Shown here: positions 7,970 to 10,439 of the stretch, piece after piece
Layout: each line of letters begins with the position of its first letter
Numbering within the stretch: the stretch's first letter is position 1
Source of the DNA: an uncultured Candidatus Pelagibacter sp.
GTDB lineage: Bacteria > Pseudomonadota > Alphaproteobacteria > Pelagibacterales > Pelagibacteraceae
Direction of reading: 5' to 3'
Assembly (NCBI GenBank): GCA_905612375.1
Contig: CAJQRS010000027.1
Location: forward strand, 1 to 32,136
Length of the DNA: 32,136 nt
The notes under the pieces: model-generated
What the model was told of the DNA's origin: nothing
The model's input: only the letters and a program-made list of their open reading frames with translations
The model's database searches: none
Position numbers and translations under genes: made by a program

Positions 7970-8743
7970 TTAATAACTGTTAATTTTCTTAGGAAATTTT
8001 TTATTTTTAACTTCATATTTATATTTAATTATAGCTGTGTTAATTTGTTTTGTAATATTTATAAATCTCTTAACAAATCTAACCTTTATTAGATTTAATC
8101 CAATTAGATCATCAGTAACTAAAACTTGTCCATCACAATGAACAGATGCTCCTATCCCAATAGTTGGAATATTTATAGTTTTTGTAATTTCTTTTGCTAA
8201 TGAGCTTTCTACACATTCTAATACAATAGAAAAAACACCTAATTCTTCTAAAATTTTAGCATCTTTTAGGAGATTATTTCTTTCAACTATTTTTTTTCCT
8301 TTAGCTTTAAAATTTTTAGCTGACTGAGGAAGAACTCCCAAATGTCCCATTACTGGAATTTTATTCTTAATTAATTTTTTGATTATATGGTATATTTTTT
8401 TACCACCTTCTAATTTAACTGCATCACATTTTGTTTTTAAAATTATTGCTTTTGCATTTCTTAAAGCTTCCGAGGTATTTCTATAAGTATTATGTGGCAT
8501 ATCAACAACCATGAGACTTTTCTTTATTCCCATTCTCACACTTTTAGAATGCTCTATCATCATATCAAGTGTTACGCTTCTAGTTGATTTATAGTTATAT
8601 AAAACAGAGCCCAAAGAATCTCCCACTAAAACGATGTCGCAATGTTTGTCTATAATCTGTGCAATGTTTTTAGAGTAAGCTGTTAGGCAAATAATTTTAG
8701 ATTTATTTTTTTTTTTGGAAATTTTTGAAAATTTATTTTTCAT
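7970..8743 (-). CDS. panB: 3-methyl-2-oxobutanoate hydroxymethyltransferase (ketopantoate hydroxymethyltransferase)
   Basis: PanB transfers a one-carbon unit from methylene-tetrahydrofolate to 2-oxoisovalerate, giving ketopantoate for pantothenate and coenzyme A. Family motifs are present in order: LTAYSKNIAQIID, VLVGDSLGSVLYNY (Mg-binding Asp), DMPHNTYRNT, AVKLEGG, MGHLGVLPQSAKNF, VLECV and IGIGAS...DGQVLVTDDLIGL. The 257 residues are near the usual 260-280. The gene is very AT-rich, with many Lys, Ile and Asn codons. No panC is seen in this window. A decayed glyoxalase fragment lies upstream and the M24 hydrolase starts three bases downstream. Confidence 0.93.
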   Translation of the reverse strand: MKNKFSKISKKKNKSKIICLTAYSKNIAQIIDKHCDIVLVGDSLGSVLYNYKSTRSVTLDMMIEHSKSVRMGIKKSLMVVDMPHNTYRNTSEALRNAKAIILKTKCDAVKLEGGKKIYHIIKKLIKNKIPVMGHLGVLPQSAKNFKAKGKKIVERNNLLKDAKILEELGVFSIVLECVESSLAKEITKTINIPTIGIGASVHCDGQVLVTDDLIGLNLIKVRFVKRFINITKQINTAIIKYKYEVKNKKFPKKINSY

Positions 8744-8769
8744 TGAAAGTTACCAAGTACCTATATTTT

Positions 8770-8847
8770 TCATACTAATCCATTGCAGTAGAAATTTAAT
8801 GATTTATCAACATTTGGGATTCTAATCATTGTGTGCAAGTATTTCAT
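8770..8847 (-). pseudogene. gloA: Vestigial glyoxalase I (lactoylglutathione lyase, GloA) N-terminal fragment
   Basis: This 25-codon reading frame is not in the ORF track. Its translation begins MKYLHTMIRIPNVDKSLNFY and ends CNGLV before TGA. It matches the conserved start of GloA proteins (MRxLHTMxRVxDLDxSLxFYxxxLG), including the metal-ligand His at position 5. After TGA the frame continues for only six codons before another stop, and panB begins 27 bases past the TGA. The remaining roughly 100 GloA residues and the other metal ligands are gone. I infer a deletion remnant of a former gloA that stood between guaA and panB. Alternatives are a chance resemblance or a tiny expressed peptide. 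Confidence 0.7.
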
Positions 8848-8873: not shown

Positions 8874-10439
8874 TTACTCTAATTCAATCGTACTCGGTGG
8901 TTTTGAAGTAACATCATAAACTACTCTATTAATTCCAACAATATTATTGATAATTTGATTAGAAATTTTTTGCATAAAACCTTTTGGAAAATCAAAGAAA
9001 TCGGCAGTCATTCCATCTTCAGAAGTAATTGCACGTAATAAACAGATATGTTCATAGGTTCTATTATCGCCCATAACACCAACTGTTTTTACAGGAAGTA
9101 AGGCTGCATAGGCTTGCCAAATTTTATGGTATAAACCGTGGTCACGTAAAGCTTTAATGAAATAAAAATCTGCTTCTTTTAGAATTTTAATTTTTTCATT
9201 AGTTATTATACCGGGCATTCTTATTGCTAAACCAGGGCCTGGGAATGGGTGTCTAGATATTATATCTTTAGATAAATTAAGCTCTAATCCTAATTTTCTA
9301 ACTTCATCTTTAAACAGGAATTTAAGTGGTTCAACTAATTTTAATTTCATTCGTTTGGGAAGGCCTCCCACATTATGGTGAGATTTTATTTTTGATGTTT
9401 GGCTGCCAGTTACCGATTTACTTTCAATTAGATCTGGATAAAGGGTTCCTTGAGCTAGAAATTTTACATTTTTAATTTTTTCTGCATATCTTTCAAATAT
9501 TTTAATGAATAAATTTCCAATAATTTTTCTTTTTTTTTCAGGATCAGAAACATTGGTAAGTTTTTTAATGAATTCTTTTTCAGCATTGACATATAATAAA
9601 TTTATCTTTAATTTATTTTTAAATGTATTAACAACTTGTGTTTCTTCATTTTTTCTCAACAATCCATTATTAACAAATATACATGTTAAATTTTTTCCTA
9701 TAGCTTTACTTAAAAGTTGTGCAACCACACTACTATCAACTCCACCTGATAGACCACAAATTACTTTGTTATCGCCTACTTGATCTTTGATTTCTTTTAT
9801 TAAATTTAGTTTTTGATCTTTAGGAGACCAATTTTTTTTAATCTTACAAATAAGAAAAATAAAATTATGTAATAAAATTTTTCCTTTAGGAGTATGTGTT
9901 ACTTCTGGGTGAAACTGAACACCATAAAAATTATCTTTAGTATTTTCAATTATTGTTAATTTGGAGTTTTTTGTTGAAGCGACTATTTTAAAATCTTTAG
10001 GCATTTTAGAGACTTGATCGGCATGACTCATCCAAACATTACTAATATTTTTGTTATTAAAAAAATTTTTAGTTAAAATACTATTTGAAACTTTAGTTAT
10101 AGTTGCAAGACCAAACTCTCTATGTTTTGACCTATTAACCCTTCCACCTAATTCTTTTGATAATATTTGATGTCCAAAGCATATGCCCATGACTGGTATG
10201 CCTAGTTTTAAAATTTTTTTATCGAATTTGAATTTATTATTTTCATAAACATTTAGAGGGCCTCCAGAAAGTATTATTCCACCTGTATTAAGTTTGACAA
10301 TCTTACTGATATTAATTTTTTTATGACTAATGATTTCTGAAAAAACACCAAACTCTCTTATTCTTCTAGCAATTAATTGTGTAAATTGAGACCCAAAATC
10401 TATTATTAGTATTTTACTTAAATTGTTACTAAGACTCAT
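8874..10439 (-). CDS. guaA: GMP synthase (glutamine-hydrolysing)
   Basis: GuaA amidates XMP to GMP with ATP and glutamine, the last step of GMP synthesis. The 521 residues have the normal two-part layout. An N-terminal class I glutamine amidotransferase has the triad in MGICFGHQ (Cys) and VQFHPEV (His, Glu). It is followed by an ATP pyrophosphatase with [10 protein letters not shown] (PP-loop) near residue 230, then the dimerisation domain with [15 protein letters not shown] and the end [10 protein letters not shown]. The start overlaps the end of the TPR gene by 11 bases, and guaB is one gene further upstream, so both GMP-branch enzymes are on one transcript. Confidence 0.97.

Follow-up and report, generated by a model that had tools for sequence, protein, structure and literature searches.

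SAR11 bacteria are a standard example of genome streamlining. According to passages in two papers on the group, the first SAR11 genome was reported to be without pseudogenes (PMC4285135, citing Giovannoni 2005), and pseudogenes in SAR11 are said to be few (PMC10308909). With so few pseudogenes, genes on their way to removal are seldom observed in these bacteria. This study concerns one such candidate in the window, i.e. the whole stretch of 32,136 nucleotides analyzed here, which belongs to an uncultured Candidatus Pelagibacter sp. (contig CAJQRS010000027.1). An initial annotation of this DNA had described the spacer between guaA and panB as the remnant of a glyoxalase I gene (gloA).

The reference for the protein family is GloA (TIGR00068; E. 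coli, PDB 1F9Z), whose metal ligands in E. coli are His5, Glu56, His74 and Glu122. The intact SAR11 proteins encoded at the guaA-panB locus align with 1F9Z over residues 1-127, all four metal-ligand positions included, and themselves score about 100 bits against TIGR00068, which is under the family cut-off of 120. The relic in the window matches these SAR11 proteins with 24 N-terminal and 8 C-terminal residues; compared with the family, it lacks 107 internal codons, and its frame is broken. With the internal-deletion relics described from bacterial genome reduction it shares the disrupted frame, the intact orthologue in relatives and the signs of relaxed constraint, but here the host is a SAR11 bacterium. 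A gloA relic between guaA and panB was not met in the literature searched (titles, abstracts and a few passages from a limited collection), and the papers on Pelagibacter and glyoxalase, mostly concerned with mycotoxin degradation, held nothing on SAR11 gloA in their titles and the starts of their abstracts. The low pseudogene content of SAR11 is already established, and the mechanism discussed below is ordinary; it is the clarity of the intermediate that is unusual.

The spacer between guaA and panB

The spacer is flanked by two intact open reading frames on the minus strand, guaA upstream (GMP synthase, 8874-10439) and panB downstream (ketopantoate hydroxymethyltransferase, 7970-8743). The relic between them, also on the minus strand, comprises 98 nt (8847-8750), and panB starts 6 nt past its final TAA. 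The open reading frame at 8770-8847 reads MKYLHTMIRIPNVDKSLNFYCNGLV followed by a stop, exactly as annotated. The 5' part of the relic (8776-8847, minus strand) corresponds to codons 1-24 of gloA (MKYLHTMIRIPNVDKSLNFYCNGL); the same segment is present in a second Candidatus Pelagibacter genome, RIS_SAG_26 (G028). The 3' part (8750-8776, minus strand) holds the last eight codons and the stop, SMKNIGTW, in a frame that differs from that of the 5' part; the corresponding C-termini of intact relatives read SMKNTGSW, SMENTGTW and SMQNTGTW. Both ends are collinear and lie 27 nt apart in the reading. The deletion junction region (8770-8777, minus strand), aligned with the spacers of G028 and of a relative with an intact gene (G086), contains the motif GTATGA, which in the N-terminal frame is read as V and a stop. 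Given the 420-nt intact gene of G086 and the 98 nt that are kept, about 322 nt are missing from between the two ends, and this loss broke the frame and led to the early stop in the 25-residue ORF. The annotation was thus correct about the early stop, but not in regarding the rest of the gene as missing: the C-terminal end is still present, and the lesion is an internal deletion rather than a 3' truncation.

That the spacer derives from glyoxalase I is borne out by controls. Against the intact GloA of G086, the 25-residue ORF scores 108, whereas none of 20,000 shuffles exceeds 44. Of the 1068 short stop-to-stop peptides that the window contains, it matches GloA best. The runner-up among these 1068, with a score of 50, is the overlapping peptide in the other frame that ends with SMKNIGTW at 8750, i.e. 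the conserved GloA C-terminus; an equal C-terminal tail ahead of a stop was found in none of 20,000 shuffled spacers. A chance resemblance to GloA is ruled out by the shuffles together with the matching C-terminus. The 25 residues alone match the profiles TIGR00068 (E = 7.9e-4) and PF00903 (E = 0.005), at 19.3 bits for the former against its cut-off of 120. The metal ligand His5 is kept, as had been noted, and it is the only one left; judged by how the intact relative aligns with 1F9Z, the other three fall in the deleted part. A functional GloA would have a full-length domain above the TIGR00068 cut-off and four metal ligands, and the relic has neither. What it does show is characteristic of a pseudogene: an intact orthologue at the same locus, both gene ends with a disruptive lesion, and relaxed selection, the last judged from small counts.

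The spacer is almost certainly a pseudogene relic of a full-length gloA with an internal deletion. According to this model, guaA and panB would have been separated in an ancestor by a full-length gloA of about 139 codons. A deletion of about 322 nt would have removed roughly codons 25-131, including Glu56, His74 and Glu122 (E. coli numbering), and joined both ends out of frame, so that the predicted product is at most a dead 25-residue peptide. At least two species would subsequently have come to share the relic, either by inheritance or through recombination between them, and it would now be drifting there. We infer that a single deletion event lies behind it, presumably driven by genetic drift or by weak selection for a smaller genome.

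A shared scar under relaxed constraint

The same deletion junction occurs in G028, whose 98 nt differ from those of the window by nine substitutions. When 85,462 species genomes were scanned for the pattern of this junction, a single match emerged, in contig CAJQSF010000023.1 of this uncultured Candidatus Pelagibacter sp. RIS_SAG_26. Between the window and G028, the changes in the 24 relic codons amount to about 6.2 non-synonymous and 0.8 synonymous ones (dN/dS 1.68). The corresponding counts are 4.0 and 39.0 for guaA (dN/dS 0.024 over 304 codons) and 22.5 and 40.5 for panB (dN/dS 0.119); dN/dS of the next gene is 0.034. The relic differs from guaA with a Fisher p of 8.5e-5 and from panB with 0.014, although the test is a weak one with just seven substitutions in 24 codons. 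These comparisons point to a relic that is decaying between constrained neighbors, albeit on small counts.

The nucleotide identity of the two genomes is not uniform along the locus: it amounts to 95% in guaA and 92% in panB, falls to 86% in the next gene and is about 81% at the left end of the window. The peak at guaA and panB may mark a recombination tract. Because identity is higher here than further away, the scar common to both genomes may have been acquired by recombination instead of simple descent.

Variation of the locus within the genus

Spacers were located via GuaA across the genus, and 60 of them were compared. In line with the initial annotation, intact gloA is found in related SAR11 genomes exactly at this place. 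Of the first 20 spacers, drawn from the closest GuaA proteins, 16 contain an intact gloA of the guaA-panB type, usually directly between the two genes and sometimes with another gene beside it; the other 40 were picked almost wholly because no gloA of that type had been detected at the spot, and the proportions do not represent a random sample. Many species of the genus possess an intact, collinear gene in this interval, among them the fairly close G086 as well as G022, G006 and G012. In most spacers without gloA, guaA and panB abut or overlap, and no leader ORF is present. Searches of 399 genomes with the GloA N-terminus, which relics lacking the 5' end would escape, revealed broken copies only in the window's own genome (G000), in G028 and in G232. 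The last of these has an independent, differently broken gloA relic in the guaA-panB interval, MKYLHKMIRIKDVNESLRFICEGLGFKNKKNVKY followed by a stop. This relic (L064, 1001-1120) precedes panB, its frame changes after GLGF, and its deletion is unlike that of the window; an FkbM-like methyltransferase gene lies between it and guaA.

In two further genomes, panB itself carries traces of the former neighbor. The panB frame of G166 begins with MKYLHNKIINF, which equals the gloA start and its first five codons (L037, 960-1040), and panB of G179 (L038) starts after a gloA-like leader. Starts at or near the old start of gloA imply that the initiation region can be reused. In the panB phylogeny, the window and G028 are grouped with 99% support, and G086, with its intact gene, is placed with G166 and G179, which have lost it. 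On this tree, fewer than four changes cannot account for the distribution of intact and lost gloA; consequently, loss of the gene, or exchange of the locus, has recurred. Tentatively, we regard the guaA-panB spacer as a natural erosion series, which would run from intact gloA through the out-of-frame relic, the differently broken relic and the reuse of the gloA start region by panB to clean abutment, with the initiation region taken over by the neighbor before the DNA is fully purged. The annotation's description of a snapshot of streamlining by gene loss agrees with the relatives that retain the whole gene and with the related species that bears the same decaying scar.

Alternatively, the leftover ORF could have been retained to serve panB as a leader or in translational coupling, since the TGA overlaps an ATG (GTATGA) from which translation might restart through MKNIGTW toward panB, 6 nt beyond its stop. 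The ATGA overlap and the short spacing in the window would suit such a role, as would the panB starts of G166 and G179. However, G028 has TTG in place of the restart ATG, 5 of the 25 residues differ there through changes that are nearly all non-synonymous, and panB follows guaA without a leader in most relatives that lack gloA, all of which makes a retained function very improbable. The fragmented, 52% complete assembly of the window's genome might also raise the suspicion that an assembly error or a chimera conceals an intact gloA. This is practically out of the question, because the independently assembled genome of a second species contains this junction too, surrounded by substitutions; the deletion is genuine, common to both genomes and in decay.

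Remaining glyoxalase I capacity

A change in methylglyoxal detoxification, as proposed by the annotation, may have followed. No other gloA was found within the assembled 52% of the window's genome, and a second type of gloA is missing at its usual site. Glyoxalase I activity has likely been lost in this strain, but half of the genome is unseen, and at 51.55% completeness a gloA elsewhere is possible. A candidate on contig C43 (L002) proved to be a different protein of the VOC superfamily, with a FosB-like best NCBIfam match at 28.6 bits, far under the cut-off. Of the 399 genomes, about 115 contain the guaA-panB type, 36 the second type and 7 both; the rest, many of them incomplete, show neither. 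The two types are 32-39% identical, and the second passes the TIGR00068 cut-off. A third, longer GloA type was observed in the same genus (L004 of G032 and L005 of G016), with 195 bits to TIGR00068.

The second type belongs to a cluster with Rieske oxygenase, EutQ-like cupin, glutamine-synthetase-like and MetX-like genes, which is present in G028 (L097, 6627-11040), G179, G098 and G154, and in G166 up to the contig end. Even if the relic is real, glyoxalase I might have been replaced, with this unlike gene taking over before or after the deletion. In favor of such a replacement, G028, G166 and G179, with a relic or a loss at guaA-panB, all possess the second type, and G086, with the first type intact, has no cluster at that site. 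In the window's genome, however, the end of contig C7 (43235-43441) runs from the gene flanking the cluster on one side into the first part of its opposite flanking gene, whose far neighbor in relatives is the window's first gene; the cluster is thus absent from that site, as in G086. This assembled edge weakens a simple replacement by the second type. Furthermore, both types coexist in seven genomes, most genomes show neither, and G322 (one contig, 99% complete) yielded no gloA match. We therefore consider replacement unlikely. Contig C7 and the 1-2180 end of the window (C27) are apparently adjacent, separated just by the remainder of one gene.

Under the preferred reading of an internally deleted, decaying gloA, several stages of erosion at one locus make it possible to measure how large deletion steps are, how long relics last and how neighboring genes are affected. 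The window's genome (C31) and G322 both have glyoxalase II. The locus also suggests that many Pelagibacter can perhaps do without glyoxalase I but keep glyoxalase II, which bears on how these bacteria handle methylglyoxal.
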